The notes below the pieces were generated by a model that had not been told where the DNA came from, did no database searches, and saw only the letters and a program-made list of their open reading frames with translations. This document shows positions 8,148-54,234 of a stretch of DNA of 64,000 nt, one piece after another. Both the position numbers and the translations under genes were made by a program. The stretch comes from Dehalococcoidia bacterium. GTDB taxonomy: Bacteria > Chloroflexota > Dehalococcoidia > Tepidiformales > Tepidiformaceae. How positions within the stretch are numbered: the stretch's first letter is position 1; every line of letters starts with the position of its first letter. The stretch is from contig JADZEI010000038.1 of the NCBI GenBank assembly GCA_020850615.1, positions 124,001 through 188,000 on the forward strand, in the 5' to 3' direction.

Positions 8148-9236
8148 ATGACGCTCGCACCTGCGCTCGAACGCGGCCCTGTCGCTTCCATACCGAAGTC
8201 GCAACACGAACCGAACTCCCCTCGGTTGGCGGAGGACGGCGAGGAGCTCCGCTACGGGCTCGACACGGTGCCCGGGATCCGCCGCCTGCGGACGCGGTCG
8301 GGGTTTCGCTACGTGCTGCCCGGCGGCGAACCGCTCCGCGACCCTGACGAGCTGGCCCGCGTCCGCGCGCTCGCCATCCCGCCGGCGTGGACCGACGTGT
8401 GGATCGCGCCCGACGCCCGTTCGCACCTCCAGGCCACCGGGCGCGACCAGAAGGGGCGCAAGCAGTACCGCTACCACCCCCGCTGGCAGGAGGAGCGCGG
8501 CGGCGACAAGTACGCCCGGATGGTGGAGTTCGGCACTGCGCTGCCGCGCATCCGGCGGGCGGTCTCGCGGCACCTCCGGCTCCGCGGCTACCCCCGCGAG
8601 CGCGTGCTCGCGGTCGTCGTCTCGCTCCTGGACCAGACCGCGCTCCGCGTGGGCAACGCCAGCTACGAGCGCGAGAACGGTTCCTATGGCCTGACGACGC
8701 TGACGAGGGAGCACGCCACGGTCGGCAGCACCCGCATCACCTTCACCTTCGTGGGCAAGAGCGGGAAGCCGCACCGCGTCACCATTGTCGACCGGCGGCT
8801 CGCGCGGGTTGTCCGGGGATGCGAAGAGCTCCCGGGGCAGCACCTCTTCTCCTACGTCGGCGACGACGGCGATGCGCGCGACGTCACCTCCGCGGACGTG
8901 AACGAGTACCTCCGCAGCATCTCCGGCGGCGACTTCACCGCGAAGGACTTCCGCACCTGGGCCGGGTCGGTGAGCGCGCTGGCGGCGCTGGTGCAGATGG
9001 ACCCGCCGGGGACGAAGGCGGAGGCGAAGCGCGCGATCAGCGCGGCCATGCGCGAGGTGGCACGGGAGCTCGGCAACACGCCGGCGGTCTGCCGGGCGTC
9101 ATACGTGCACCCCCGCGTGCTCGAAGCCTATGCCGCGGGGACGCTGGCCGGGGACTGCGGCGCGAAAGGCCGCCTGGACCGGCGCGGGGCGGAGCGCTGC
9201 CTGCGAGCGCTCCTGGCGGTGGACTCGGCCGCCTGA
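8148..9236 (+). CDS. Type IB DNA topoisomerase (poxvirus-like)
   Basis: The 362-residue protein has an N-terminal domain ending in 'LAIPPAWTDVWIAP', then 'ATGRDQKGRKQYRYHP' and the catalytic domain. Catalytic residues can be placed: Arg in 'ALRVGNASY', Lys in 'VGKSGKPHRV', Arg in 'AKDFRTWAGS' and the nucleophilic Tyr in 'CRASYVHP', shortly before 'PRVLEAY'. The enzyme relaxes supercoils through a 3'-phosphotyrosyl intermediate. Bacterial copies are accessory genes of patchy distribution. I start at ATG 8148; the frame extends upstream to 8022, but that part reads as non-coding. The ribosome binding site is weak. Confidence 0.9.
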   Translation: MTLAPALERGPVASIPKSQHEPNSPRLAEDGEELRYGLDTVPGIRRLRTRSGFRYVLPGGEPLRDPDELARVRALAIPPAWTDVWIAPDARSHLQATGRDQKGRKQYRYHPRWQEERGGDKYARMVEFGTALPRIRRAVSRHLRLRGYPRERVLAVVVSLLDQTALRVGNASYERENGSYGLTTLTREHATVGSTRITFTFVGKSGKPHRVTIVDRRLARVVRGCEELPGQHLFSYVGDDGDARDVTSADVNEYLRSISGGDFTAKDFRTWAGSVSALAALVQMDPPGTKAEAKRAISAAMREVARELGNTPAVCRASYVHPRVLEAYAAGTLAGDCGAKGRLDRRGAERCLRALLAVDSAA

Positions 9237-9303: not shown

Positions 9304-11121
9304 ATGACCGCCACACCCGGCGCCCCCATCCTGCGCATCGCGAACTGTTCCGGCTTCTACGGCGACCGCATGTCGGCCGCGCGCGAGATGGTCGAAGGCG
9401 GGCCGATCGACTTCCTCACCGGCGACTACCTCGCTGAGCTCACCCTGCTGATCATGTGGAAGGACCAGCAGAAGGACGGCTCCGGCGGGTACGCGCGCAC
9501 CTACCTCCGGCAGATGGAGGACGTGCTCGGGACCTGCATGGAGAAGGGTATCAAGATCGTGACCAACGCCGGCGGGCTGAACCCGGCCGGGCTGGCGCGC
9601 AAGATGCGGGAGCTGGCCGACCGCCTCGGCATCCAGGCCCGCATCGCCCACATCGAAGGCGACGACCTGCTGCCTCGGATCGGCGCGCTCCAGGCCGCGG
9701 GCGAGGCGTTCCGTAACCTCGATACCGGCCACACGCTGGCCGAAGACGGCGTCGAACCCGTGGCCGCCAACGCCTACCTCGGCGCCTGGGGCATCGTCCA
9801 GGCGCTCGAAACCGGGGCCGATGTCGTGGTCTGCCCCCGCGTCACCGACGCGTCGGTGGTTGTGGGGCCGGCGGCGTGGCACTTCGGCTGGAAGCGCGAC
9901 GACTGGGACCGCCTCGCGGGCGCCGTGGTCGCGGGCCATGCCATCGAATGCGGGCCGCAGGTGACGGGCGGCAACTACGCGTTCTTCCGCGAAGTGCCGG
10001 GCCTGCTCAACCCCGGCTTCCCGATCGCCGAGATGCACGCGGATGGCTCATGCGTCATAACGAAGCACCCGGGCACCGGCGGGCTCGTTTCGACCGGCAC
10101 CCTGACCGCGCAGCTCCTCTACGAGATCGGGGGCCCGCGCTACATGAACCCCGATGTGGTTGCCCGCTTCGATACGATCCGGCTCGAACAGGAAGGGCCC
10201 GACCGCGTGCGCATCGCCGGTGTGCGGGGTGAGCCGGCGCCCGATACGACCAAGGTGTGCATCAACTATATGGGTGGCTACCGGAACAGCACCTCGTTCG
10301 TGCTCACGGGCCTGGACATCGAGGCGAAAGCGGAGCTCGCCACCGAGACGCTGTTCGCGAAGCTCGGCGGGCGCGACCGGTTTGAGAGCGTCGACATCCA
10401 GCTCGCCCGAACCGACGACCCGGACCCGGCCTCGAACGAGCTGGCGAGCGCGACCCTGCGCATCACCGTGAAGGACCACGACCCGGCGAAGGTCGGCCGC
10501 GCGTTTTCGAACGCCAACGTGGAGATGGTCCTCACCAGCTACCCGGGGTTGTACGGCTACGGGAAGCCGAGCTCGGAGGAGTCCTACGCGGTCTACTGGC
10601 CGGCCCTCGTCTCCTCCTCCGCGATCGAGGAGACGGTCGTGACGCACGATGGCAGCCGGATCCGCATCCCCAGCGCGACCGCGACCGGCAACCCGGTGGA
10701 GGTTGTACCCCCGCCCGGGCCCAGCATGGCCCCGCCCGCAGGCGAGACCAGGCGCATGCCGCTCGGCACCGTCATCGGTGCGCGCTCCGGCGACAAGGGC
10801 GGCAACGCGAACGTGGGCCTCTGGGCACGCAGCGACGCCGGCTTCGCCTGGCTCCGCGACTTCCTGACCGTCGAGCGGTTCCGGGAGCTCGTGGCGGAGG
10901 CCCGTGACCTCGAGGTCCAGCGTTACGAGCTGCCCAACCTCCGGGCGCTCAACTTCGTCGTGGTCGGCCTGCTGGGCGAAGGCGTCGCTTCGACCACCCG
11001 CATGGACCCGCAGGCGAAGAGCCTCGGCGAATACGTCCGCGCGAAAGTGGTCGACCTGCCCGTTGCCCTGCTCGGTGATGCGCCCTTACCGGCAGGTGGT
11101 GCGAATTCGATTCGGACGTGA
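9304..11121 (+). CDS. AtuA-family protein (DUF1446), acyclic terpene utilisation-like
   Basis: The ATG at 9304 follows GAGGG. The 605-residue product starts 'ILRIANCSGFYGDRMSAAREMVEGGPIDFLTGDYLAELT', typical of DUF1446/AtuA, with 'IVTNAGGLNP', 'GADVVVCPRVTDASVVVGPAAWHFGW' and 'HPGTGGLVSTGTLTAQLLYEIGG' all present. A C-terminal domain of about 110 residues begins 'MPLGTVIGARSGDKGGNANVGLWAR', the AtuA-like ferredoxin-fold domain. In Pseudomonas, AtuA belongs to citronellol/geranyl-CoA catabolism, but most homologues are of unknown substrate and sit with acyl-CoA genes. Its TGA overlaps the first base-pairs of the GTGAC operator at 11118. Confidence 0.9.
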   Translation: MTATPGAPILRIANCSGFYGDRMSAAREMVEGGPIDFLTGDYLAELTLLIMWKDQQKDGSGGYARTYLRQMEDVLGTCMEKGIKIVTNAGGLNPAGLARKMRELADRLGIQARIAHIEGDDLLPRIGALQAAGEAFRNLDTGHTLAEDGVEPVAANAYLGAWGIVQALETGADVVVCPRVTDASVVVGPAAWHFGWKRDDWDRLAGAVVAGHAIECGPQVTGGNYAFFREVPGLLNPGFPIAEMHADGSCVITKHPGTGGLVSTGTLTAQLLYEIGGPRYMNPDVVARFDTIRLEQEGPDRVRIAGVRGEPAPDTTKVCINYMGGYRNSTSFVLTGLDIEAKAELATETLFAKLGGRDRFESVDIQLARTDDPDPASNELASATLRITVKDHDPAKVGRAFSNANVEMVLTSYPGLYGYGKPSSEESYAVYWPALVSSSAIEETVVTHDGSRIRIPSATATGNPVEVVPPPGPSMAPPAGETRRMPLGTVIGARSGDKGGNANVGLWARSDAGFAWLRDFLTVERFRELVAEARDLEVQRYELPNLRALNFVVVGLLGEGVASTTRMDPQAKSLGEYVRAKVVDLPVALLGDAPLPAGGANSIRT

Positions 11122-11131
11122 CAAAAGTCGC
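11118..11131. promoter_or_regulatory. CRP/FNR-type palindrome, copy 1 (GTGACAAAAGTCGC)
   Basis: The 14-base site overlaps the stop codon of the AtuA gene. Its centre is 41.5 bp before the ATG of the NnrS-like gene. Near-identical sites precede DUF2249 (12572) and the MobB-FmdE gene (14564). The 5-4-5 geometry matches FNR/CRP superfamily operators. Confidence 0.6.
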
Positions 11132-11165
11132 GGCATAGGAGCTTCTTCGCCACGACGCTCGGGAT

Positions 11166-12506
11166 ATGCGAGACCAATCCCCCGATCTCACCGTCCAGGT
11201 TGTCCAGTCGCGCGCGGCGCCGCGCCCCCACGCGCACGTCATGACGGGCCCCCGCCACCCGTGGCTGTTCGCGGCCTGGATGGCGGCGTCGACAGCGATC
11301 GCGGTGGTCGCCGGCCTGACGCTCGGGCTGCTGGCGGTGCTCGAAGTGAGCATCGGCGGCGACCGCTGGACGCAGGCGGTGCAGGCCCACGGGCGGCTCC
11401 AGCTCTTCGGCTTCGTGGCCACGTTCGTCACCGCGCTCGCCTTCGAATTCCTGGTGCGCTTGAACCAGCGTGCGGCCTTCCCGGCGCGCATCCGCCTTGG
11501 TGTGCCCGCGGTCATCGCCGCGGGGTCGTTGCTCCTCGCCGCCGGGCAGACCTGGTACGACAGCGTGGGGTTCCTGGCCCCAGCCGGCGGCGTCATCGTC
11601 GCCGGTGGCGCAGCGGTGTTCACCGTCGCCGTGTGGCGGGTGGCCCCGCCCTTCCCGTTGTCCGCGAACCCGCAGCCGCTCTTCCCGCGCGCGGGCGCGG
11701 CCTGGCTCCTGGTTGCCGCGGTGTTCGCCGCGAGCGGCGCCTTCCAGGCGGAGACCGGCGTCGTGCCGCTCGATACCTCCCGCGCGACGGTTGAGCTGTT
11801 CCTGCGCGGCTTCGTGATGCTGTTCATCCTCGGCATCGCCCTCCGCGCGTTCGTGGGCCACCTCGGCCTCCAACCGATGACGCCCGGGCGGCAGATCGTC
11901 GTGTTCGCGCTGCTGAACGCGAGCCTGGCGGCCTGGCTCCTCGCGCAGGGCCTCGGCTCGCTGCCCGAGCTCGGCTGGCTCGCGCGCATCGCCGACGCCG
12001 GTTACGCGCTGGCGATCCTGCTGTTCACGGTCTGGATGGGGGTCCTGCGCCGCCTGCGCCACATGGCGTGGACGCCGGCCTACGGCTGGATGCTGCCCGT
12101 CGCCTGGCTCGGCGCGCTCGTGTACGCGGCGCTGCTGGCGGCGCGCGCTGTAGCGGGTGATGTGAGCCCGGGGCTGTACGAAGACGGGGCACTGCGCCAC
12201 ATCTTCATGCTCGGCTTCATGGTCCCGCTCATGGCGGGCATGTCCGACGTCGTGCTCGCGCGCTTCGCGACCGGCCGCATCCCGCGCGAGAAGCTCCTCG
12301 TCGTGGCTTTCGCAGTGCTCATCGTCGCGTGGCCGCTGCGCGTGGTGCCCGCCCTCATCGAGGACGCGCCCGGGGATGCTGGCCGCGGGCTCATGGGGCT
12401 CGCCGGCGTGCTCACGATGGTCGCGCTTGCGGGGCTCGTGGTTGTTGCCGCGTCGGTTGCGAAGGCGCACCGGGCCGCGGTGCGCCCCGCCGTCCGGCAC
12501 CGATGA
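11166..12506 (+). CDS. NnrS-family-like polytopic membrane protein (446 aa)
   Basis: About 12 hydrophobic spans start near residue 33. The motif 'AHGRLQLFGFVATFVTALAFEF' (about residues 77-98) has the His-containing helix typical of NnrS, and 'RHIFMLGFMVPLMAGMSDVV' near residue 340 supplies another conserved His in a membrane helix. NnrS proteins are heme- and copper-containing membrane proteins expressed with denitrification genes and linked to protection from nitric oxide. Here the gene is headed by a CRP/FNR-type palindrome shared with the neighbouring Mo-enzyme locus. The exact start is unsure, because Met26 is also possible. Confidence 0.75.
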   Translation: MRDQSPDLTVQVVQSRAAPRPHAHVMTGPRHPWLFAAWMAASTAIAVVAGLTLGLLAVLEVSIGGDRWTQAVQAHGRLQLFGFVATFVTALAFEFLVRLNQRAAFPARIRLGVPAVIAAGSLLLAAGQTWYDSVGFLAPAGGVIVAGGAAVFTVAVWRVAPPFPLSANPQPLFPRAGAAWLLVAAVFAASGAFQAETGVVPLDTSRATVELFLRGFVMLFILGIALRAFVGHLGLQPMTPGRQIVVFALLNASLAAWLLAQGLGSLPELGWLARIADAGYALAILLFTVWMGVLRRLRHMAWTPAYGWMLPVAWLGALVYAALLAARAVAGDVSPGLYEDGALRHIFMLGFMVPLMAGMSDVVLARFATGRIPREKLLVVAFAVLIVAWPLRVVPALIEDAPGDAGRGLMGLAGVLTMVALAGLVVVAASVAKAHRAAVRPAVRHR

Positions 12507-12571
12507 CCGGCACGGCAGCCGCGAACCCCGTTTTCTGAAACCAAAACAATGAATCGAGCAACGCGACGGTC

Positions 12572-12585
12572 GTGACTTTTGTCGC
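12572..12585. promoter_or_regulatory. CRP/FNR-type palindrome, copy 2 (GTGACTTTTGTCGC)
   Basis: Same motif as at 11118 and 14564 except for the inverted A4/T4 spacer. It lies in the 113-bp gap after the NnrS-like gene, with its centre 41.5 bp before the DUF2249 ATG. It suggests that DUF2249 starts a new transcript controlled by the same factor. Confidence 0.6.
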
Positions 12586-12619
12586 ATCATCCGTTGTGTC
12601 TATCACGGAGGCTTGGGCT

Positions 12620-12844
12620 ATGACGACGAAGCAAATCGACAACCGTGGGCTCGAACCGCCGGAGCCGATGGTGCGCATCCTGCGCGCGCTGCAGGAGCTG
12701 AACGGCGAAGGCCAGCTGGTCGCGCTCATGGACCGCGAACCCCACCTGCTCTTCCCGGAGCTCGAACGGCGGGGCTACACCTGGTCGTTCGAGAAGGACG
12801 GCCAGACCCCGTATGTCCTGACCATCTGGAAGGCGGGCGAATAG
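12620..12844 (+). CDS. DUF2249-domain protein (74 aa)
   Basis: The ATG at 12620 has GGAGG eight bases upstream; an upstream in-frame ATG at 12572 falls inside the operator and is rejected. The sequence 'IDNRGLEPPEPMVRILRAL......LMDREPHLLFPELERRGYTWSFEKDG' is a TusA-like DUF2249 fold. This small family regularly accompanies NnrS, hemerythrins and denitrification genes, but its function is not established. The gene abuts the next one (TAG directly followed by ATG), so both are in one operon with the DUF59 gene. Confidence 0.85.
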   Translation: MTTKQIDNRGLEPPEPMVRILRALQELNGEGQLVALMDREPHLLFPELERRGYTWSFEKDGQTPYVLTIWKAGE

Positions 12845-14158
12845 ATGTTGCCGCCGGCTCCCGGCCGCAGCCCGGCCCTCGGCGTGACCGCGCCGTTCTT
12901 CGTTGCCGCGCCCCTCGGGCTGGTGGCGGCGGGGCTGCTGCTCGCGACCTCGGGGACCGACGCATTCCTCGCGATTAACGTCCCCCGCACGGTCGCGGTG
13001 ACCCACGCGGCGGTCATCGGCTGGCTCACGGCGGCGATCTTCGGCGCGATCTACCAGCTCGGGCCCGCGGTGCTCGGGGGCCGGCTGGTCTCCGAGCGGC
13101 TCGCCCGCGTGCAGTTCTACGTGCACGCCGTTTCGGTCACGGCGTTCGTGTGGTCGCTGCTCGAATGGAACGTCGTGGTGATGAGCGCGGCCGGGTCGGG
13201 TGTTGTCGTGTCGTTCGTTCTGTTCCTGGTGAACGGCTGGCCCGCAGTCCGGGCGCTTCGCCCGTCGACGCTCCCGCGCGCGTACCTGGCCACGGCGATG
13301 GCGCTGCTCGCGGTGACGGCGAGCGTCGGGATCACCTTCGTGGGCACGCTCGAACACCTCTGGTTCCCGGTGACGCTCGGCCGGCTCGGCGGGCACGCGC
13401 ACCTCGGGCTGGTGGGCTGGCTCGCGCTCGTCGTCATGGGCACGTCGTACCAGCTCGTCCCGATGTTCAACATCTCGCATGGCGCGCGGCCCCGGCTCGG
13501 GTGGTGGGCGCTCGGCGTGACCGCCGCGGCCACGCTGGTCGGTGGCATCGGGCTCATGACGGACCCGCCGCGCGAGGTCCGGCTCGTCCTCGCGCTCCTG
13601 CTCGCCGCGGGGCCGGCCCTCTGGTCGGTCGACATGCTGCGCATCCTCCGGTCGCGGGCGCGGCGGCGGCTGGACATCCAGGGGCACGCGACGTGCGTCT
13701 CGCTGGTGTTCCTCGCGGCTGCGGTGGCGCTGGGGATCGCCGTGGCGTGGGGCTCGCCCATCCTCGGCCGCGAAGACGCCGCGCGCTGGCACCTGGCCTA
13801 TGGCGTCATCGCGATCGGCGGCTGGGCCGGGGTCACGCTCATTGGCAACAGCTACAAGATCGTGCCGTTCCTCACCTGGTACCACCGCTACCGTGAGCAG
13901 GCCGGCATCCGGCCGGTGCCGATGATCGCGGACATCTACAGCGCGCGCTGGGCGTACGTCACGCTGGTGGCGCACTCTGCGGCGGTGGTGCTCATCGCCG
14001 CGGGGGCGCTGACGGCACACCTCGCGCTGCTCCAGACGGGCGGCGCCCTGCTCGCCGCGGGCGGGCTGGTGCACGTGGCGGCGCTCGCGCACGTGGTCCT
14101 CGCGCCGCACGCGGCGCGCACCCCGGTCAAGACCGTGAACGAGGCGATTTCGCGATGA
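12845..14158 (+). CDS. Polytopic membrane protein, cbb3 oxidase subunit I/NnrS-like fold (437 aa)
   Basis: About 12 membrane spans. Conserved-looking histidines in helices: 'VAVTHAAVIGWLTAAIFGAIYQLGP' near residues 52-76, 'GGHAHLGLVGWLALVVMGTSYQLVP' near 182-206, and 'GNSYKIVPFLTWYHRY' near 335-350. This is the helix and His pattern of heme-copper oxidase subunit I relatives and of NnrS, without a complete oxidase active site that I can demonstrate. It probably binds heme in the membrane and handles nitrogen oxides or electrons. It overlaps the DUF59 gene by 4 bases (ATGA). Confidence 0.7.
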   Translation: MLPPAPGRSPALGVTAPFFVAAPLGLVAAGLLLATSGTDAFLAINVPRTVAVTHAAVIGWLTAAIFGAIYQLGPAVLGGRLVSERLARVQFYVHAVSVTAFVWSLLEWNVVVMSAAGSGVVVSFVLFLVNGWPAVRALRPSTLPRAYLATAMALLAVTASVGITFVGTLEHLWFPVTLGRLGGHAHLGLVGWLALVVMGTSYQLVPMFNISHGARPRLGWWALGVTAAATLVGGIGLMTDPPREVRLVLALLLAAGPALWSVDMLRILRSRARRRLDIQGHATCVSLVFLAAAVALGIAVAWGSPILGREDAARWHLAYGVIAIGGWAGVTLIGNSYKIVPFLTWYHRYREQAGIRPVPMIADIYSARWAYVTLVAHSAAVVLIAAGALTAHLALLQTGGALLAAGGLVHVAALAHVVLAPHAARTPVKTVNEAISR

Positions 14159-14457
14159 CGACTGCAGAAGTGGCGGCCGCCCTGGCCAACGTCTACGACC
14201 CCGAGCTCGGCATCGATATCGTCTCGCTCGGGCTGGTGTACGACATCGGGATCTGCGACCGCGAGCTGCGCGTCGGCATCGCGATGACGACGCCGGATTG
14301 CCCCATGGCAGGGGCGATCTTCGGGATGGTGCAGGGCATGCTGTCGGTGGAATTCCCCGCCGCCGAGCTCGACATCCAGCTCGCGAACGACCCGCCGTGG
14401 AACATCCACATGGCGGATGAGGCGGCCCTCCGCTGGCTGGGAGTGCCCGCGCGCTAG
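14155..14457 (+). CDS. DUF59/MIP18-family metal-sulfur cluster assembly protein (100 aa)
   Basis: The opening 'VAAALANVYDPELGIDIVSLGLVYDIGI' and 'MTTPDCPMAGAIFGMVQGML' are the two signature blocks of the MIP18/PaaD-like family, including the conserved Cys in 'TPDCPM'. Members help deliver Fe-S clusters or assist metalloenzyme maturation, and some are fused to ApbC/Mrp. Its location just before an Fe-S-rich molybdoenzyme operon suggests that it serves that enzyme. The start overlaps the preceding stop (ATGA), giving translational coupling. Confidence 0.9.
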   Translation: MTTAEVAAALANVYDPELGIDIVSLGLVYDIGICDRELRVGIAMTTPDCPMAGAIFGMVQGMLSVEFPAAELDIQLANDPPWNIHMADEAALRWLGVPAR

Positions 14458-14484
14458 GGGGCTGCTGCGGCCAGGTTTGAGGCG

Positions 14485-14516
14485 CTGAGGGGGGAGCCGG
14501 GGGACTCCCCCCTCAG
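14485..14516 (+). terminator. Strong hairpin after the DUF59 gene
   Basis: CTGAGGGGGGAG (14485-14496) pairs perfectly with CTCCCCCCTCAG (14505-14516) around an 8-base loop. It lies 27 bases past the stop codon and is followed only by CCATTTCC, so it lacks a full T-tract. It probably ends the DUF2249 operon. Confidence 0.6.
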
Positions 14517-14563
14517 CCATTTCCGGCACGATGGCGTCCCGGTTCACGACTGTCACAGCGCTC

Positions 14564-14577
14564 GTGACAAAAGTCAC
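14564..14577. promoter_or_regulatory. CRP/FNR-type palindrome, copy 3 (GTGACAAAAGTCAC)
   Basis: A perfect palindrome apart from its A4 spacer. With flanks it reads CGTGACAAAAGTCACA, nine of ten fixed positions of the CRP consensus TGTGA-N6-TCACA. It lies upstream of the MobB-FmdE and molybdoenzyme operon and is the best-conserved of the three copies. Confidence 0.65.
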
Positions 14578-14784
14578 ATTGTCTGACGCCGTTCGGGCGC
14601 AGTGTCGTGGCGTGGGGAACTGCGCCATCGATTACCGTCCGGAAGCGTCCAGCCGGACCCGTACAGCGCAGACTACCGGCCGTTGTGAACCCCGGCCAGA
14701 TGCCCAAGATGACACACAAGACGCGCATATCAGTACAGGGGATACGCGCGGGCGGATGGCCCGGCCATCCGTTGGGAGGGACTG

Positions 14785-15837
14785 ATGGGCGACCCAGTGT
14801 CCGGGGCCTACCCGGGACCGGCGGTGCTTGCCGTGCGGGGGCCGTCCAGGGCGGGGAAGACGGCCCTGATCGAGGGGTTGATCCAGGCCCTCGCCGCCGA
14901 CGGTATTGAGGTCGCCTACGTGAAGCGCACCCACCACGAGCTGGACTTGCCGGCCAAGGGCTCGGGCCGGGTCTGGTCGCGCCGGCCGGCCGCGATGGTC
15001 ATGCACGCCCCGGACCGCCTCCAGGTCACCGTCGCACCGGGTGACGATTCCACGCCTGCGCTGCTTCGCGCATTGCCCCCGAACATCGACCTGGCGCTGG
15101 TCGAAACCCACTCCCAGCAGGTCTACCCGACGCTGCTCTCGACGCTCATGGAGCCGGGCGAGGGCGAGGACGTCATCGCCCGCTGGGAGCCGCTCCAGCC
15201 GCCGACCGACGCGATCATTCGCGCTGCGCGCAGCCTGGTCCCGGCCGACCGCGAGCTCGACCGCGCGCTGCGGCTGGCGACGGCGATGCACGGCGGGCGC
15301 GGTTGCCCGGGCGTCATCCTCGGTACGCGGCTCGGCCTGGCGGGGCTGCACGCCCTCGGGATGGAGGCTGGCGGCGGGGACGGCCTGGTGGTCACGCTCG
15401 AGACGGACCGCTGCGCCGCCGATGCCGTGCTCGCCGTGACCGGCTGCCGGATCGGCCGGGGCACGCTCCGGTTCGTTGACCACGGAAAAGTCGCCGCCAC
15501 GTTCGCCCACGCGGCGAGCGGCCGGGCGGTGCGCGTCGCCGCACGGGGCGACCTTCGCGCCCGCGCCGGCTGGGCCTGCGATGCACGCGAACGCCGGGCG
15601 CTGCAACGTGCGGCCTACCTTTCGATGACTGACGACGAGCTCTTCACGCTGGCGGACGCACCGGTGTCCGCGCGGGATGAGGCTCGGGGCGATGAATCGC
15701 CGCGCCGGCGCGTGAATTGCGCCACGTGCGGCGAGGAGGTCGCAGACGGGCGGGAAGTCCAGGTGGAACACGGAACGTACTGCCGCGCGTGCCTCGCGCC
15801 GCGCGAAGCAGAGCTGGAGGGATCACGGCATGGATAG
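14785..15837 (+). CDS. MobB-FmdE fusion protein with C-terminal zinc ribbon (350 aa)
   Basis: Residues 1-140 are a MobB-type P-loop domain (Walker A GPSRAGKT, 'VAYVKRTHHELD', 'DLALVETH'), which assists guanylylation of molybdopterin to the MGD cofactor. From about residue 165 an FmdE-like domain follows: 'MHGGRGCPGVILGTRLGLAG', 'VTLETDRCAADAVLAVTGC' and 'GRGTLRFVDHGKVAATF'. The C terminus is a Cys4 zinc ribbon ('CATCGEEV...YCRACL'). FmdE is a tungsten/molybdenum formylmethanofuran dehydrogenase-associated protein of unclear role. The fusion heads the molybdoenzyme operon and overlaps the alpha-subunit start by 8 bases, pointing to cofactor supply for that enzyme. Confidence 0.85.
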   Translation: MGDPVSGAYPGPAVLAVRGPSRAGKTALIEGLIQALAADGIEVAYVKRTHHELDLPAKGSGRVWSRRPAAMVMHAPDRLQVTVAPGDDSTPALLRALPPNIDLALVETHSQQVYPTLLSTLMEPGEGEDVIARWEPLQPPTDAIIRAARSLVPADRELDRALRLATAMHGGRGCPGVILGTRLGLAGLHALGMEAGGGDGLVVTLETDRCAADAVLAVTGCRIGRGTLRFVDHGKVAATFAHAASGRAVRVAARGDLRARAGWACDARERRALQRAAYLSMTDDELFTLADAPVSARDEARGDESPRRRVNCATCGEEVADGREVQVEHGTYCRACLAPREAELEGSRHG

Positions 15838-18800
15838 ACGGGGCTTTCTCAAGCTGGGCTCAGCGACGGTCGCCACCGGCACCGCCCTGTACGTGGAACG
15901 CAAGATGGCGTTCCTGCAGGCGGCGCCGGGCATCGAAAACCCGCTGCTGTTCTACCCGAACCGCGGCTGGGAGCAGGTGTATCGCGACCAGTACGCGTAC
16001 GACAGCCACTTCACCTTCGTGTGCGCGCCGAACTGCACGCATAACTGCCGTCTGCGCGCCTTCGTGCGCAACGGCGTGGTGATGCGGACGGAGCAGAACT
16101 ACGATGGCGCGAACATCGCGGACCGCTTCGGCAACCGTTCCACGAATGCCTGGAACCCACGCGGCTGCAACAAGGGCGCATCGCTCACCCGCCGCATCTA
16201 CGGGCCGTACCGGCTCAAGGGGCCGATGATCCGTGCCGGCTGGAAGCAGTGGGCCGACGACGGATTTCCGACGCTCGACCCGGCTTCGAACAACCGCACG
16301 AAGTACAAGTTCGACGACCGCGGCAACGACACCTTCGTCAAGGTGAGTTGGGACGACGCGTTCAAGTACGCGGCGAAGGGCCTCGTCTCCACGGCGAAGC
16401 GCTACTCGGGCCCGGACGGCAAGAAGCTCCTCGAGGACGAGGGCTACCAGCCGGAGATGATCGAAGCCGTGCACGACGCCGGCACGCGGACGATGAAGCT
16501 CCGCGGCGGCATGGGCCTGCTCGGCGTGATGGGCAAGTATGGCATGTACCGCATGTCCAACACCCTCGCCATCATGGATAGCCACGTCCGCAACGTGCAG
16601 CCCGCGGACTCGATGGGCGGACGGAACTGGTCGAACTACACCTGGCACGGTGACCAGGCCCCGGGCACGCCGTTTGTCACCGGCCTGCAGAACCCGGACT
16701 GCGACTTCAACGACATGCGTAACGCCCGGCTGCACATCGGCATGGGCAAGAACCTCGTCGAGAACAAGATGGCCGACGCGCACTTCTTCATCGAGATGAT
16801 GGAGCGCGGCGGCAAGATCGTGACGGTCACCCCGGAATACAGCCCGCCGGCGACGAAGGCGGACTACTGGATCCCGTGCCGGCCGGGCCTCGGCGACCTC
16901 GCGCTCGTCCTCGGCGTCACGAAGCTCCTGATGGACCGGAACCTGTACGACGCCCCGTTCGTGAAGAACTACACGGACCTGCCGCTGCTCATCCGCAAGG
17001 ACAACCTGAAGCGCCTGAGCGCCGCGGACGTCATCCCGAACTACCAGCCGGGACTGCCGGAAACCGGCCCCAGCTTCAACCTCCAGGGTCTCACCAAAGA
17101 GCAGTACGCGAAGCTCCAGGACTACGTCGTCTGGGACGCGAAGACGAACGCGATCGCGGCCATCACCCGCGAGGACGTGGGCGCGAAGCTTACCGACAAG
17201 GGCATCGACCCCGCGCTCGACTACACCGGCACGGTCACCCTGAACGACGGCACGAAGGTGGAAGTGCTGACCATCTGGTCGGCCTACCGCGACCACCTGA
17301 AGGACTACGACCTCGACACGGTCGCCGAGATCAGCCATTCGCCGAAGCACCTCATCGAGCAGCTGGCGAACGACCTGGCAACGATCAAGCCCGCGGCCAT
17401 CCACGTCGGCGAGGGCATCAACCACTGGTTCCACGCCACGCTCCACAACCGGGCTGTGCACCTGCCGCTCATGCTCACGGGCAACTTCGGCGTCCCGGGC
17501 GCGGGCGTCTACGCCTGGGCCGGCAATTACAAGGGCGCGCTCTTCCAGGGCACCAAGGAGAGCGGCCCCGGCTGGCTCGGCTGGATCGTCGAGGACCCCT
17601 ACAACCCGAACCTCGACGACAAGGTCGACGGCAAGGACATCAAGGTCAAGAAGTACAGCAAGGACGAGGAGCCGGCCTTCTGGGACCACGGCGACCGCGC
17701 CCTCATCGTCGATGTGCCGAAGGGCGGACATAAGGTGTTCACGGGCGCGACGCACATGCCGACGCCCACGAAGGTCATCTGGACGACGAACGTCAACCTG
17801 ATCAACAACGCCAAGTGGCTCTACGGCGTGCTCTTCAACGTCCTGCCCAAGATCGACATGATCATGACGCAGGACATCGAGATGACGCTGAGCTGCGAAT
17901 ACTCGGACTTCATCCTGCCGGCGAACTCCTGGCTCGAATCCACCCAGCCGGAAGTCACCGCCTCCTGCCAGAACCCGTTCCTCCAGATCTGGAAGGGCGG
18001 CGTGAAGCCGATGTTCGACACCAAGGACGACATCGCCATCATGGCGGGTGTCGCGAAGGCCCTCGGCGAGGAGTTCAACGACAAGCGGTTCGAGGACTAC
18101 TGGAAGTTCGCCCTCGAAGGCCGCACCGACGTCTACATCCAACGCCTCCTTAGCTCCTCCGCGACGACGCGCGGGTACAACTACGACGAGGTGATGGCGG
18201 GCAAGATCACCGGTGCCAACGGCAGCCAGATCGCGACCGAGCCCGGGTCCGTGCTCATGCAGTTCCGGACCTACCCCCGCATCCCGTACTGGGAGCAGAT
18301 CCACGACAACGTGCCGTTCCATACCGACACCGGCCGGATGAACGCCTACTGCGACATCCCCGAGGCGATCGAGTACGGCGAGAACTTCATTGTCCACCGC
18401 GAGGGGCCGGAGGCGACGCCCTACCTGCCCAACGTCATCGTCTCGACCAACCCGCTCATCCGGCCCAACGACTACGGCATCCCGCAGTCGGAGATGGACC
18501 CCGAGCTGCGCACGGTCCGCAACATCAAGATGTCCTGGGCGGAGACGAAGCAGACGAAGAACCCGCTCTGGGAGCAGGGCTACAACTTCTACTTCCTGAC
18601 GCCGAAGACCCGGCACAGCGTCCACTCGTCGTGGTCCGTGACGGACTGGCAGGCGCTGTGGAACAGCGACTTCTCCGACCCGTACCGCGCCGACAAGCGG
18701 ATGCCCGGGGTGAGCGAGCAGCAGCTCCACATGAACCCGGACGACGCCAAGGCGCTCAACCTCAAGGAAGGCGACTACGTCTGGGTCGATGCGAACCCCG

Positions 18801-19288
18801 CCGACCGGCCGTACATCGGCTGGAAGCCGGATGACCCGGAGTACAAGGTCGCGCGGCTCATGCTCCGGGTGAAGATCAACCCGGCCTACCCGCGCGGCGC
18901 CGTGATGACCAAGCACGGTGGCTTCGGGGCCACGCCCAAGACGGTCCGCGCCCACGAAACGCGCTCCGACGGGCGCGCCGTCTCCGAGGACACGGGCTAC
19001 CAGTCGAGCTTCCGCTACGGCTCCCACCAGAGCGTGACCAAGGACTGGGCGATGCCGATGCACCAGACCGACACGCTCTTCCACAAGTCCAAGGCGAACC
19101 ACACGTTCCTCTTCGGCGGCGAAACCGACAACCACGCGATCAACACGGTGCCCAAGGAGACGCTCGTGAAGATCACCAAGGCCGAGGACGGCAACTTCGC
19201 CCCGGCCCTCGACGGCATGGTGGTCGGCGGCGAGAACGAGTTCATGCAGCAGTACCTCCGCGGTGCGCTCAACACGGTGAGGGGCTGA
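15830..19288 (+). CDS. Molybdopterin oxidoreductase catalytic subunit, NxrA/NarG-like (type II DMSO reductase family)
   Basis: The 1152-residue protein begins with a Tat signal (DRRGFLKLGSATVATG), so it is exported folded. The Fe-S motif is Cys65-x3-Cys69-x3-Cys73-x39-Cys113, binding one [4Fe-4S] cluster. 'NYTWHGDQAPGTPFVTG' places Asp275 as probable Mo ligand, as in the type II group (nitrate, perchlorate and selenate reductases, ethylbenzene dehydrogenase, NXR). C-terminal bis-MGD motifs include 'CEYSDFILPANSWLE' and 'MTKHGGFG'. Length and motifs are close to the periplasmic NxrA of Nitrospira and anammox bacteria. It probably interconverts nitrite and nitrate; direction and exact substrate cannot be read from sequence. 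Ribosome binding site CTGGAGG. First subunit gene of the operon. Confidence 0.9.
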   Translation: MDRRGFLKLGSATVATGTALYVERKMAFLQAAPGIENPLLFYPNRGWEQVYRDQYAYDSHFTFVCAPNCTHNCRLRAFVRNGVVMRTEQNYDGANIADRFGNRSTNAWNPRGCNKGASLTRRIYGPYRLKGPMIRAGWKQWADDGFPTLDPASNNRTKYKFDDRGNDTFVKVSWDDAFKYAAKGLVSTAKRYSGPDGKKLLEDEGYQPEMIEAVHDAGTRTMKLRGGMGLLGVMGKYGMYRMSNTLAIMDSHVRNVQPADSMGGRNWSNYTWHGDQAPGTPFVTGLQNPDCDFNDMRNARLHIGMGKNLVENKMADAHFFIEMMERGGKIVTVTPEYSPPATKADYWIPCRPGLGDLALVLGVTKLLMDRNLYDAPFVKNYTDLPLLIRKDNLKRLSAADVIPNYQPGLPETGPSFNLQGLTKEQYAKLQDYVVWDAKTNAIAAITREDVGAKLTDKGIDPALDYTGTVTLNDGTKVEVLTIWSAYRDHLKDYDLDTVAEISHSPKHLIEQLANDLATIKPAAIHVGEGINHWFHATLHNRAVHLPLMLTGNFGVPGAGVYAWAGNYKGALFQGTKESGPGWLGWIVEDPYNPNLDDKVDGKDIKVKKYSKDEEPAFWDHGDRALIVDVPKGGHKVFTGATHMPTPTKVIWTTNVNLINNAKWLYGVLFNVLPKIDMIMTQDIEMTLSCEYSDFILPANSWLESTQPEVTASCQNPFLQIWKGGVKPMFDTKDDIAIMAGVAKALGEEFNDKRFEDYWKFALEGRTDVYIQRLLSSSATTRGYNYDEVMAGKITGANGSQIATEPGSVLMQFRTYPRIPYWEQIHDNVPFHTDTGRMNAYCDIPEAIEYGENFIVHREGPEATPYLPNVIVSTNPLIRPNDYGIPQSEMDPELRTVRNIKMSWAETKQTKNPLWEQGYNFYFLTPKTRHSVHSSWSVTDWQALWNSDFSDPYRADKRMPGVSEQQLHMNPDDAKALNLKEGDYVWVDANPADRPYIGWKPDDPEYKVARLMLRVKINPAYPRGAVMTKHGGFGATPKTVRAHETRSDGRAVSEDTGYQSSFRYGSHQSVTKDWAMPMHQTDTLFHKSKANHTFLFGGETDNHAINTVPKETLVKITKAEDGNFAPALDGMVVGGENEFMQQYLRGALNTVRG

Positions 19289-19291
19289 TCG

Positions 19292-19561
19292 ATGGCTGAG
19301 AAGCACTTCGAAAGCGACGACCCGCTGGAGCTCGTCGCTGCCAGGTTCCCCATCCCGGAAGGCGTGGACATCGACGAGGTGACCGCCCGCGTGTTCATCG
19401 AGGAGTACGCCCTCATGGGCATGTCGCGCGAGAAGATCTACGCGCTCTTCCGCAACGGCTACTTCGCCGGCACGAACGCGATCTACGACACCCGCGGCGA
19501 GGTGTTCGTCCAGCGGCTGATCGACGAGGTCTTCGGGCCCGCCCCCCAGGAGGTGGCGTGA
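19292..19561 (+). CDS. Small protein of unknown function between alpha and beta subunit genes (89 aa)
   Basis: Starts 3 bases after the alpha stop and ends on the beta start (GTGATG junction), so it is translationally coupled to both. The product is acidic, has no signal peptide or Cys and looks alpha-helical: 'DIDEVTARVFIEEYALMGMSREKIYALFRNGYFAGTNAIYDTRGEVFVQRLIDEVFG'-like segments occupy residues 26-83. I recognise no domain. Position and codon use show that it is a genuine gene. Possible roles are an assembly factor or a structural subunit. Confidence 0.8.
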   Translation: MAEKHFESDDPLELVAARFPIPEGVDIDEVTARVFIEEYALMGMSREKIYALFRNGYFAGTNAIYDTRGEVFVQRLIDEVFGPAPQEVA

Positions 19562-20802
19562 TGGTACAGGTCCACAACTGGCAGCTCGGGCGGGAGATGG
19601 AGTACCGCTACGACGCCGGCAAGCCCAAGCGGCAGTTCGCCGCGGTGTTCAACACCAACCGCTGCATCGCCTGCCAGACGTGCACGATGGCCTGCAAGAG
19701 CACCTGGACGTTTTCTCCCGGCCAGGAGCTCATGTGGTGGAACAACGTCGAGACCAAGCCCTACGGCGGCTACCCGAAGCACTGGGACGTCAAGATCCTG
19801 GAGCTCCAGGAGAAGGCCAACCCCGGCGGCCAGGTCTGGAACACCGCCGCGAAGGACGCGAAGAAGAGCCCCTACGGCACCTTCGAGGGCAAGACCGTCT
19901 TCGAAACCGCCGACGGCAGCCAGAACCAGGTGACTGGCTACATCCCGGCGGAGGAGGAGTGGAAGGCGCCGAACTTCGGCGAGGACACCGCGACGAAGAC
20001 CTCCACCGACGGCGCCCAGCTCCCCGAGCACGCCGGCTGGTTCTTCTACCTCCAGCGTATTTGCAACCACTGCAGCTACCCGGCCTGCCTCGCGGCCTGC
20101 CCGCGCAACGCGGTGTACAAGCGTGAGGACGACGGCATCGTCCTCATCGACCAGGAGCGCTGCCGCGGCTACCGCAAGTGCGTGGAGGCCTGCCCCTACA
20201 AGAAGTCCATGTACCGGCCGAGCACGCGCACGTCGGAGAAGTGCATCGGCTGCTTCCCGCGCGTCGAAGGCACGGACCCGCTGACCGAAGGCATCCCGAT
20301 GGAGACGCGGTGCATGACCGCCTGCATCGGCAAGATCCGCCTGCAGGGTCTCGTCCAGGTCGACGATGCGGGCCTCTGGATCGAGGACCCGTCGAACCCG
20401 CTCTACTACCTCGTCCACATCGCGAAGGTGGCGCTGCCGCTCTACCCGCAGTTCGGCACCCAGCCGAACGTGTACTACATCCCGCCCCGCTGGGTCCCGC
20501 GGGACTACCTCCGCCAGATGTTCGGCCCGGGCGTCGACGCGGCGATCGAGGCGTACACGAACCCGAGCCGCGAGACGCTCGCGGTGCTGCAGCTCTTCCG
20601 CGCCGCCCAGAGCATCGTCTTCAGCTACAAGATCGAGCAGGGCCCGAAGGTCCAGGAGCTCACCATCGCCGGCCAGAAGCGCGAGCTCTACGACGACGTC
20701 ATCATCGGGTACGACAGCCAGGGCCGCGAAATCACCCGTGTCTCGGTCGAGGAGAAAACCATCGACCGTGGCGCCCAGTTCATCTCGCTGAACACGATCT
20801 AG
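19561..20802 (+). CDS. Iron-sulfur beta subunit, NxrB/NarH-like
   Basis: The 413-residue protein has four cluster motifs: CIACQTCTMAC (Cys35, 38, 41, 45), CNHCSYPACLAAC, CRGYRKCVEAC (three Cys with Tyr in place of the fourth, so a [3Fe-4S] site) and 'CIGC...CMTAC'. The segments 'VHNWQLGREMEY', 'QELMWWNNVETKPYGGYP', 'NPGGQVWN' and 'ICNHC.YP.CLAACPR.A.YKR' match, from memory, the NxrB of Nitrospira/anammox type very closely. It carries electrons from the Mo subunit to the heme subunit. No signal peptide is present, so it is presumably co-exported with alpha. I prefer ATG 19561 to GTG 19558 because AGGAGG is better spaced. In-frame alternative: 414 residues. Confidence 0.93.
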   Translation: MVQVHNWQLGREMEYRYDAGKPKRQFAAVFNTNRCIACQTCTMACKSTWTFSPGQELMWWNNVETKPYGGYPKHWDVKILELQEKANPGGQVWNTAAKDAKKSPYGTFEGKTVFETADGSQNQVTGYIPAEEEWKAPNFGEDTATKTSTDGAQLPEHAGWFFYLQRICNHCSYPACLAACPRNAVYKREDDGIVLIDQERCRGYRKCVEACPYKKSMYRPSTRTSEKCIGCFPRVEGTDPLTEGIPMETRCMTACIGKIRLQGLVQVDDAGLWIEDPSNPLYYLVHIAKVALPLYPQFGTQPNVYYIPPRWVPRDYLRQMFGPGVDAAIEAYTNPSRETLAVLQLFRAAQSIVFSYKIEQGPKVQELTIAGQKRELYDDVIIGYDSQGREITRVSVEEKTIDRGAQFISLNTI

Positions 20803-20811
20803 GGGGCCGTT

Positions 20812-21564
20812 GTGACACCACTACGGGTCGAACCCGCTGCCCCCGATTTCGTTACGCTCCAGCGAGCAGCTGCCTATGAGCTGCTCGCCCTTGCCCTCGC
20901 CTACCCGGACGACAACGTCCTGGAGCAGCTCCGCGACGTCGCCACGACGGCCGGCGGGATGCTCCGCGGCACGCCCGTGGCGGCGCTCTGCGAAGTCGCC
21001 GTCCACGCCACCCGGCCGGAGCTCGAACCGGCCTACGTCGAGCTCTGCACGCTCACCTCGTCGGTCGACTGTCCGACGTATGAGTCGGCCTACTTCGGCG
21101 GCGAGGCGCAGCTCCAGACCATGCGCATGGCCGACATCTCCGGCTTCTACCGCGCCTTCGGCGTGGAGACGATGGGCACCGGGCTCCGGCCGGACGAGAT
21201 CTCGGTCGAGCTCGAGTTCATGGCCTACCTCTGCCGCAAGGAAGTCCACGCCCGGGCGAATAAGGGCGCGCCGCGCGTCGCCCAGACGCGCCGGGCCCAG
21301 CGCCTCTTCCTCGAGGAGCACCTCGGGACGTGGGCCGCGCCGTTCGGCCGCCGCGTGGCCTCGCGGGCGAACACCACGTTCTACCAGCTCGCCGGGGCGG
21401 CGCTGTCGCTCTGGATCGCGGCGGAAACGGCCGAGCTCCAGGCCTCGCCCGTGGAGGTGACCGGCATGCCGGTCATCGAGCCGCTCGACCGCACCAACCA
21501 CGGCCCGGAATTCGTCGGCCGGTCCGCTGAGGTCATCACGTTCGACGACATCCCGGTGATATGA
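20812..21564 (+). CDS. TorD/DmsD-family molybdoenzyme chaperone (250 aa)
   Basis: All-helical, cytoplasmic-looking protein starting with GTG 9 bases after the beta stop. It has the TorD-family layout: 'RAAAYELLALALAYPDDNVLEQL' near residue 18, 'LEPAYVELCTLTSSVDCPTYESAYFGG' in the middle and 'DEISVELEFMAYLCRKE' about residue 140. Such chaperones bind the Tat signal of the catalytic subunit, hold it until MGD is inserted and prevent early export. Gene order alpha-X-beta-chaperone-gamma resembles the delta subunits of chlorate, selenate and ethylbenzene enzymes. Confidence 0.88.
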   Translation: MTPLRVEPAAPDFVTLQRAAAYELLALALAYPDDNVLEQLRDVATTAGGMLRGTPVAALCEVAVHATRPELEPAYVELCTLTSSVDCPTYESAYFGGEAQLQTMRMADISGFYRAFGVETMGTGLRPDEISVELEFMAYLCRKEVHARANKGAPRVAQTRRAQRLFLEEHLGTWAAPFGRRVASRANTTFYQLAGAALSLWIAAETAELQASPVEVTGMPVIEPLDRTNHGPEFVGRSAEVITFDDIPVI

Positions 21565-21574
21565 GGGTTATGCG

Positions 21575-22558
21575 ATGAGATTCCTGTCATTCAGCTGGCG
21601 CCGCCCGCTCGCGCTCATCGCGGTCGTGCTTGCCGCTGGGGCGCTGCTCCAGTTCACCGATACCAACCCCGCCGTCTCGCAGGCGCTCACCCTGAAGGCC
21701 TACGAGGCGCCCGAAGACCCGGGGTTGGACCCCGCTTCCGACGTCTGGAAGGGCAACGTCTCTTCCGTCCGCGTGCCGCTGACCGCCCAGGCCGGCATCT
21801 ACGCGGCCGGCGGCGGCAGCATCCCGACCGTCCGCGTGCAGGCCGTCCACTATCAGGAGCGGCTCTACATCCGGGCCGAATGGGCCGACGGGACGCTGGA
21901 CGAGGCCACCACCCGCGTGGAGGACTTCTCCGACGCGGTCGCGCTCGAGTTCCCGGCGAAGAGCGCCAGCAGCGTGCCCTCGATCTGCATGGGCCAGGCC
22001 GATGCCGGCGTGAACATCTGGCACTGGCGAGCTGACTCGCAGGCCGGGCTCAAGGACCCGGTCGCGATCTACGCCGGCGCCGTGAGCGACGAGCCGGAGT
22101 CGAAGGACAACCTCTTCTACACGGCGCGCGAAGCCGGCAACCCGTTCGCGAACCCGGACCTCGGCGCGGTCCAGAACCTCGTCTCCGAGACCTTCGGCGC
22201 GCTCACCATCGCCAGCGTCCAGGACGTCACCGGTGAGGGCAAGCATGACGGCGAGAACTGGGCCGTCGTCTTCGTCCGCGACTACGCGGGCGCGGGCGCG
22301 GACCAGGCCAACTTCGCGGCCGGTGCGAAGACCGACATGGCGCTCGCCGTCTGGAACGGCAGCGAGGACGACCGGAACGGGCGCAAGTCCCTCTCCCAGT
22401 TCGTCACGCTCTCCATCTCGGATTCCGTCATCCCGGGTGGCGGCGGCGGCACGAACATGACCGCGGCCTGGTTCGGCATCGCGCTCGTGCTTGGCCTCGC
22501 GGCCCTCGGCGTCGGCCTCGGTGTCGTCGGCCTCCGCGAAACGGGGAACGCGCGATGA
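21575..22558 (+). CDS. Heme b-binding gamma subunit, ethylbenzene dehydrogenase/NxrC-like
   Basis: The 327-residue protein has an N-terminal signal sequence (about residues 8-35), a soluble beta-rich domain and a C-terminal membrane helix (about 295-318) followed by a short basic tail. The domain shows EB_dh features: 'LTLKAYEAPEDPGLDPASDVWKG'-type opening, 'RVQAVHYQERLYIRAEWADGT', 'SICMGQADAGVNIWHWRAD' with a candidate axial Met, and 'DMALAVWNGSEDDRNGRKSLSQFV' with a candidate Lys side. The gamma subunit binds one heme b and passes electrons out of the alpha-beta core. The C-terminal anchor would hold the complex on the outer face of the membrane, unlike the soluble EbdC. Confidence 0.88.
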   Translation: MRFLSFSWRRPLALIAVVLAAGALLQFTDTNPAVSQALTLKAYEAPEDPGLDPASDVWKGNVSSVRVPLTAQAGIYAAGGGSIPTVRVQAVHYQERLYIRAEWADGTLDEATTRVEDFSDAVALEFPAKSASSVPSICMGQADAGVNIWHWRADSQAGLKDPVAIYAGAVSDEPESKDNLFYTAREAGNPFANPDLGAVQNLVSETFGALTIASVQDVTGEGKHDGENWAVVFVRDYAGAGADQANFAAGAKTDMALAVWNGSEDDRNGRKSLSQFVTLSISDSVIPGGGGGTNMTAAWFGIALVLGLAALGVGLGVVGLRETGNAR

Positions 22559-23532
22559 CAGCGCGCCTGGGCGCCGGCCGGCCAGCTCCCGCCATCCCGG
22601 CGGCGACCTGGCTGGCGGCGCTCCTCGCCGTCACCTCGGCCGTGGAGCTCCTCATCCTACGGACGTTCACGCGGACGGCGATCCACATCCCCGCGATCGA
22701 GACGATGCAGGAGCCGTACGAGCTTCTCGCGGTCGGCGGGCGCTACGCCTACTTCGTCTCGGTGGTGCTGCTGGCGCTCGTCGTGCCCATCGCGGGCTGG
22801 CGGCTCTGGCAGCGCGGGGATGTCCTCGCCCGGCTGGCCGCGGGAGGTCTCGCGGCCTTCACGCTCGTAGCCGTGCTGGCGGCGTCCGGCCTCGAAAGCC
22901 GCTCCCTGCTCGACATCGGCACGCTGGCCGCGGTCGCGGTGCTCACCGGCGTCGCCGCCGGGCGGCAGGGCCTGCGCGGTGCGGTGCCGGTGGGCCTGTT
23001 CGGGATCGCGTTCCTGCTCAGCGGGGCGCACACGCTCGCGCAGTCGGCGTCGAACGAACGGCTGGCGTCGGTGGACACGTCCGGGCTGCTCCTGCCGGCC
23101 GAGTACGCTGGTGCGCTCTTCGCGCTCGCGATGCCGCTGATGCTCGGGCGCCAGTCGAGCCGCGCCGCGGTGGTCGCCGGGGTCGCGGTCACACTCGTCG
23201 GGCTCGCGTTCTTCCTGGGCAACGGCTCCACGTCGCGATTCCTGTTGCTCTGGAACGTCGGGCTCTCGGGCGTGCTGCCGGGCGTGGTGTATGCGGTCGC
23301 TGGCGGGACGATCGCGGCGACCTTCGCGGGGCTGCTCGCCAGCGGGCGCAGCACGACCGCCATCGCGGTGGCGCTGCTCGTCGCCGGCGGGATCGGCCTC
23401 CACAGCACGTACCAGGATGGGCTTGTCGTCACCGCGCTGGCGCTCCTCGTGCTTGGCGCTGCGCCAGCCGCGGCGCTGCGCACGGTGGACGAACCTGTGC
23501 CCGGCCAGGCAGTGCCCGCGCCTGCTCTCTGA
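22555..23532 (+). CDS. Polytopic membrane protein, last gene of the molybdoenzyme operon (325 aa)
   Basis: Overlaps the gamma gene by 4 bases (ATGA), so it clearly belongs to the operon. About 9-10 hydrophobic spans cover residues 18-310. It is unlike NarI, NrfD or cytochrome b in any motif I can see: few His residues fall in helices ('SGAHTLAQSAS' near 160 and 'GIGLHSTYQDG' near 285). I do not recognise a family. It could be the membrane electron-exchange partner for quinone or a transporter for the substrate/product anion. The last 20 residues are hydrophilic and Pro/Val-rich. Confidence 0.75.
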   Translation: MTARLGAGRPAPAIPAATWLAALLAVTSAVELLILRTFTRTAIHIPAIETMQEPYELLAVGGRYAYFVSVVLLALVVPIAGWRLWQRGDVLARLAAGGLAAFTLVAVLAASGLESRSLLDIGTLAAVAVLTGVAAGRQGLRGAVPVGLFGIAFLLSGAHTLAQSASNERLASVDTSGLLLPAEYAGALFALAMPLMLGRQSSRAAVVAGVAVTLVGLAFFLGNGSTSRFLLLWNVGLSGVLPGVVYAVAGGTIAATFAGLLASGRSTTAIAVALLVAGGIGLHSTYQDGLVVTALALLVLGAAPAAALRTVDEPVPGQAVPAPAL

Positions 23533-54030: not shown

Positions 54031-54234
54031 ATGCAACCGGATTCCCCCACCGCTATTCCCACTGCCACCGGCACCTCGAACATCCGCCACTGCGAGCGCT
54101 GTGGCATCGCCTACGACTGGCGGCGCAACGTCAGCAGCTCGCTCCGCATGACCTACTGCAACAGCCTCTGCGAAGCGGCGGGCCTGGGGTTCACGCTCGA
54201 AGCGATGTTCCGGGCGACCCGGCCAGCTGCCTGA
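54031..54234 (+). CDS. Small zinc-finger-like protein (67 aa)
   Basis: ATG 54031 lies 9 bases after AAAGGA; a GTG at 54013 would sit on that Shine-Dalgarno sequence. The product has CERC (knuckle 1) and C-x3-C in 'YCNSLCEAAGLGF' (knuckle 2) around a basic 'YDWRRNVSSSLRMT' loop, typical of a small treble-clef or ribbon finger. No named family is recognised. A nucleic-acid-binding role is a guess. Confidence 0.6.
   Translation: MQPDSPTAIPTATGTSNIRHCERCGIAYDWRRNVSSSLRMTYCNSLCEAAGLGFTLEAMFRATRPAA

Follow-up and report, generated by a model that had tools for sequence, protein, structure and literature searches.

Three near-identical palindromes in the window, a 64,000-nucleotide stretch of a Dehalococcoidia bacterium contig, very probably bind an activator through which genes of nitrogen-oxide respiration are switched on together. 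Re-reading the sequence placed them exactly where an earlier sequence-only reading had put them: site 1 at 11118-11131 (+; GTGACAAAAGTCGC), before an NnrS-like gene; site 2 at 12572-12585 (+; GTGACTTTTGTCGC, reverse complement GCGACAAAAGTCAC), before a DUF2249 operon; and site 3 at 14564-14577 (+; GTGACAAAAGTCAC), a perfect palindrome before an operon encoding a MobB-FmdE protein and an nxr-type molybdoenzyme. All three sites have the NTGAN-N4-NTCAN form of CRP/FNR-family operators, two of them with GTCGC in one half, and the match of site 3 to the CRP consensus (TGTGA-N6-TCACA, 14563-14578) is at 9 of the 10 fixed bases, as claimed. Their near-identity had been understated, since the 4-nt spacer is identical as well (AAAA/TTTT).

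With the spacer included and site 2 taken as its reverse complement (GCGACAAAAGTCAC), the three sites share the 14-mer GYGACAAAAGTCRC. It occurs exactly three times in the genome (4.17 Mb searched, 95 contigs, 95% complete), always within the window, against 0.014 expected occurrences under an order-2 Markov model built from 190 kb of the same genome (P about 4e-7 for at least three). Looser versions carry little information. Allowing up to two mismatches gave 220 matches in the window where 217 were expected, and this form was dropped as a signal there. The exact motif GTGAC-N4-GTCRC (GTGACNNNNGTCRC) has 48 occurrences in the genome, where about 31 are expected, and most of them fall within coding sequence; alone it is uninformative, and its matches inside genes are mostly chance. 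The spacer separates these places: where at least three of its four bases are A or T, all eight places are intergenic, compared with about 5 of the 40 others (Fisher p 3e-6, with intergenic and coding counts from a simple codon-usage gene caller and a spacer split chosen after seeing the data). Most of the eight lie beside nitrogen-oxide, molybdenum, or CRP/FNR-regulator genes, and exact GTGACWWWWGTCRY is found at six places against 0.06 expected. Random density, coding regions included, which the sequence-only reading had named as grounds for abandoning the regulon, therefore describes the loose motif but not the A/T-spacer motif, and the proposed scan for association with respiration genes returned A/T-spacer sites concentrated at nitrogen-oxide and molybdenum genes. 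That three GC-rich palindromes resemble each other by chance is highly improbable: loose versions are indeed common and mostly coding, but the identical A/T spacers and the register with the -10 element described below argue against it, and the conservation in orthologous promoters that such a reading could not survive is observed.

The same three promoters are recognizable as phylogenetic footprints in related Tepidiforma-like Chloroflexota, all of one family, to which named Tepidiforma loci and "Dehalococcoidia" MAG loci correspond by sequence and synteny. Of 13 DUF2249 promoters in relatives, 11 have the site with at most one mismatch (0.25 expected in shuffles), and five other genomes show exactly GTGACTTTTGTCGC there. 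Before the NnrS-like gene, GTGAC-N4-GTCGC is retained in three other genera, with weaker forms in two, and the nxr/MobB/R1 region of relatives carries GTGACATTCGTCAC, GTGACAATCGTCAC, and similar sequences. In most genomes the downstream half-site of the DUF2249 and NnrS-like promoters is weakened (GTCGC; GTCAA in Tepidiforma), which may tune the strength of these promoters. The site is absent upstream of 19 of 20 NnrS homologues from outside the family.

We aligned 33 promoters (13 DUF2249, 6 NnrS-like, and 14 nxr) on the palindrome and found a -10 half-element, A-N3-T, with its A 23-25 nt past the palindrome in all 33; other four-wide windows had mostly 0-5 of 33, with a maximum of 12 away from the peak. 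In a start-codon-anchored alignment, with starts from the simple codon-usage caller, only A-11 and T-7 strongly stand out (p 2e-7 each, values that are optimistic because the promoters come from related genera that share ancestry, are thus not fully independent, and were selected for carrying a site). Read as A-11 and T-7 of the -10 element, A-N3-T places the site centre at -41.5, the class II CRP/FNR position. The sequence thus has the class II arrangement of a site at about -41.5, a -10 element, and no -35 element, from which transcription starts can be predicted. No sigma-70-like promoter with a -35 element was found in window positions 11000-15000, as expected of activator-dependent promoters. 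A repressor whose operators block the -35 region is a very unlikely alternative; a protein bound at -41.5 would overlap that region, but there is no recognizable -35 element to block, and the fixed class II spacing is the usual layout of CRP/FNR activation.

In the NnrS-like and DUF2249 promoters, start codons usually lie 33-36 nt (up to 39 nt) past the site, so that +1 is predicted to coincide with the start codon or to fall at most a few nucleotides from it, giving leaderless transcripts. The -10 of the NnrS-like gene (GACGCT, 11154-11159, +) predicts +1 at 11166, the ATG itself, with the site centred 41.5 nt upstream, and that of the DUF2249 gene (GAGGCT, 12608-12613, +) predicts +1 at 12620, also an ATG. 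The latter -10 overlaps GGAGG at 12607-12611, alternatively a possible ribosome-binding site, which makes leaderless translation of that gene less certain here. The -10 of the nxr operon (CAGTGT, 14600-14605, +) predicts +1 at 14612 and a leader of about 173 nt.

The first unit encodes a 446-aa membrane protein (11166-12506, +) whose NnrS-like label, taken from the sequence-only reading, reflects only a weak resemblance (PF05940, E = 0.024, 14.4 bits against a cut-off of 28). The second encodes a DUF2249 protein (PF10006; 12620-12844, +), a COX1-like membrane protein below the Pfam cut-off (12845-14158, +), and a DUF59/SufT-type Fe-S assembly protein (PF01883; 14155-14457, +). The third is headed by a fusion protein of MobB, FmdE, and a DksA/TraR-type zinc finger (14785-15837, +), which has homologues in the family. 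It is followed by a 1,152-aa molybdoenzyme alpha subunit (15830-19288, +), a conserved 89-aa protein (19292-19561, +) that gave no family match and also occurs in relative L077, an iron-sulfur beta subunit (19561-20802, +), a TorD-like chaperone of the type II DMSO-reductase family (20812-21564, +), a haem b gamma subunit (PF09459/TIGR03477; 21575-22558, +), and a hypothetical protein at the operon end (22555-23532, +). The earlier label of molybdoenzyme holds and can be refined to NxrA/NarG-like type II: the closest solved structure to the alpha subunit is Kuenenia NxrA (PDB 7b04, 1588 bits, full length) and the beta subunit resembles NxrB (7b04 chain A, 600 bits), far above the scores of about 136 and 168 bits to NarG and NarH.

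Five CRP/FNR proteins above the Pfam cut-off are encoded in the genome, all outside the window, in agreement with the sequence-only reading, which had found no such gene there. Synteny and recognition residues single out one of them, R1 (228 aa; G000:C45, L020:7481-8167), as the cognate candidate that this reading had called for, and R1 is probably the regulator of the three sites. R1 is 46-61% identical to 18 orthologues. Most relatives that have R1 carry it next to DUF59, the nxr/MobB operon, or both, and many of the divergent promoters contain a site. In many relatives the R1 gene fills the gap between DUF59 and MobB-FmdE/nxrA, facing away from nxr and towards DUF59; in others (e.g., L211 and L212), it adjoins DUF59 and nxr is elsewhere. 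In several relatives with R1 (e.g., L211, L212, L223, and L225), no clear site lies upstream of it. The corresponding slot in the window (14458-14784, no strand) was searched for an R1 remnant and none was found. In this genome R1 sits beside nirK on another contig, with TTGACAAAAGTCAT between them, and this relocation accounts for the window having no regulator.

R193, E194, and R198 of R1 are invariant in the 19 sequences and correspond to R180, E181, and R185, the three residues with which CRP reads GTGA; Rodionov et al. 2005 (PMC1274295) linked R180 to G and E181 to A in CRP/FNR half-sites. No cysteine is invariant or nearly invariant in the 19 sequences, and all 19 have a PNPAT-like segment without Arg in place of the Arg-Ser of the cAMP pocket, which sets R1 apart from both classical FNR and cAMP-CRP. 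Its best-scoring solved structures are GlxR/CRP-type proteins, and GTGAC dominates its sites, not the TTGAC or TTGCG half-site of DNR/NnrR.

GlxR-type proteins bind TGTGA-N6-TCACA, and the genome has a cAMP-CRP/GlxR-like protein of its own (C66, L022:6218-6913). Its helix SRESVNKQL looks GlxR-like, and an R-S pair, typical of cAMP binders, is retained in its ligand pocket. That this protein binds the sites as part of a general carbon and energy regulon is quite unlikely: it is unlinked to these genes, whereas R1 is linked to them in most R1-bearing relatives, and sites with A/T spacers cluster at nitrogen-oxide and molybdenum genes. R1 remains the preferred regulator, and the earlier proposal of a single CRP/FNR-type regulon gains support from conservation in other genera, the fixed class II distance, the syntenic regulator, and further intergenic sites.

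These further sites share conserved cores and point to additional predicted members elsewhere in the genome. They precede a further operon of NxrA-like type (C38:102921; its alpha subunit scores 924 bits against NxrA), nirK (C45:12254), an SQR-like flavoprotein gene (C81:6299), moaA (C9:47329), modA (C66:5384), a gene for a 67-aa Cys-rich protein (C9:33911), a CRP/FNR gene of a second type, R2, flanked on both sides by type II molybdoenzyme operons (C81:80200), and the nos cluster with its own CRP/FNR gene (C10). A -10 oriented with the gene accompanies the sites of the nxr paralogue, nirK, the SQR-like gene, and both R2 genes; the nos site has only a poor -10, and the moaA site has none at the correct distance. 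A genome search for a site combined with a -10 brought in modA and a further R2-type molybdoenzyme; its coding matches (C4 and C73) and a match upstream of an ispG-like gene (C18) were judged to be chance. The second NxrA/NxrB-type operon (G000:C38:95000-110000, L016) precedes the window operon by about 30 kb and carries its own perfect palindrome, GTGACTTTAGTCAC; the divergent operon there encodes another molybdoenzyme. Small Cys-rich proteins (CxRCGxxYDWRR...CxSLCE) occur in several copies (window 54031-54234; L018:8039-8242 and 8394-8579), and the C9 copy has an GTGACTTGTGTCAC site upstream with a correctly spaced -10.

The R2 proteins (C81 and C10; L021:668-1387 and L023:6261-7061) have recognition helices of the type V/I-E-T-A-I-R and a C-terminal CxxCxxxC, which to us recalls the C-terminal cluster ligands of Bacillus Fnr. 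Perfect GTGAC-N4-GTCAC sites in the promoters of both R2 genes, and perfect GTGAC sites in the own promoters of R2 orthologues in G000, G003, G004, G009, and G020, had first made R2 the favoured regulator, through autoregulation. We now think it unlikely that the sites belong to R2. The R2 helices lack the arginine that pairs with the half-site G, R1 is the syntenic neighbour, and genomes G002 and G014 keep the sites with no detectable R2 (an absence that in draft genomes may be an assembly gap, for R1 as for R2). R2 is better fitted by ATGAC-N4-GTCAT, possibly a second, related motif, which is found at C36 and, in several genomes, at R2-linked type II molybdoenzyme operons (loci in G000:C81 [L023:6091-7103], G003, G004, and G009, with further loci in G005 and G007 that may be R2-linked). 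R1 could plausibly stand above R2 in a cascade. A wider scheme, which we put forward tentatively, would have a Chloroflexota-specific R1 subfamily run the whole of nitrogen-oxide respiration as one regulon, through class II promoters of which several are leaderless. R1 would also drive a second tier, the Cys-rich R2 paralogues, which would read ATGAC-N4-GTCAT and control other type II molybdoenzymes, with one recognition-helix residue separating the tiers.

For the window, we consider it highly likely that the three palindromes are R1 sites at -41.5 of three class II activator-dependent promoters. One dimeric CRP/FNR-family activator, R1, would bind GTGAC-N4-GTCAC in each promoter, with the centre at -41.5, and would recruit RNA polymerase as a class II activator; the promoters have a partial -10 (nAnnnT) and lack a recognizable -35. 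It would thereby turn on the NnrS-like gene, the DUF2249-COX1-like-DUF59 operon, and the MobB-FmdE-nxrAB-type molybdoenzyme operon. R1-type sites elsewhere suggest that its reach extends to the second nxr-type operon, nirK, nos, moaA, modA, the SQR-like gene, and two further CRP/FNR genes. Binding by R1 and activation rather than repression we infer from the computed sites and geometry; R1 probably responds to NO, to a related nitrogen oxide, or to low oxygen, with nitrogen-oxide sensing suggested by the identity of the target genes.

To our knowledge, little is known of the switches of NxrAB-type enzyme expression. Our literature search found no nitrogen-oxide respiration regulon described for this lineage, and nothing on a Chloroflexota nxr/FNR regulon or on DUF2249 with NnrS. 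What emerges is an exact motif, a candidate for its regulator, and a set of predicted targets and transcription starts, which can be put to the test in relatives of Tepidiforma, a genus with cultured members.

The regulon is an undescribed one of a known kind. Like the DNR/NnrR regulons of denitrifying proteobacteria (PMC1274295), it combines a CRP/FNR activator, nir/nor/nos/nnrS/COG4309-type targets, and an N4-spaced palindrome; it differs in its half-site (GTGAC instead of TTGAC or TTGCG), CRP-type recognition arginine, and Chloroflexota host, and its predicted reach takes in an NxrAB-type operon and molybdenum-supply genes. With the HcpR regulon (wTGTGAnnnnnnTCACAw, PMC1274295) it shares nitrogen-oxide genes and a CRP-like half-site read by R180/E181, but its targets are nxr, nirK, and nos instead of hcp and frdX, and R1 is nearest to GlxR/CRP-type structures. 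CRP and GlxR (class II, -41.5) are alike in half-site, recognition residues, geometry, and nearest solved structures, whereas R1 lacks the cAMP-pocket arginine and is predicted to control a dedicated respiratory regulon. Kuenenia NxrABC (PDB 7b04, PMC8387239) is similar over the full length of alpha and beta and likewise has a haem b gamma subunit. Although sequence does not fix the direction of the enzyme, here, unlike in Kuenenia, it falls into one predicted regulon with nirK and nos, and this shared control suggests respiratory nitrate reduction rather than nitrite oxidation.
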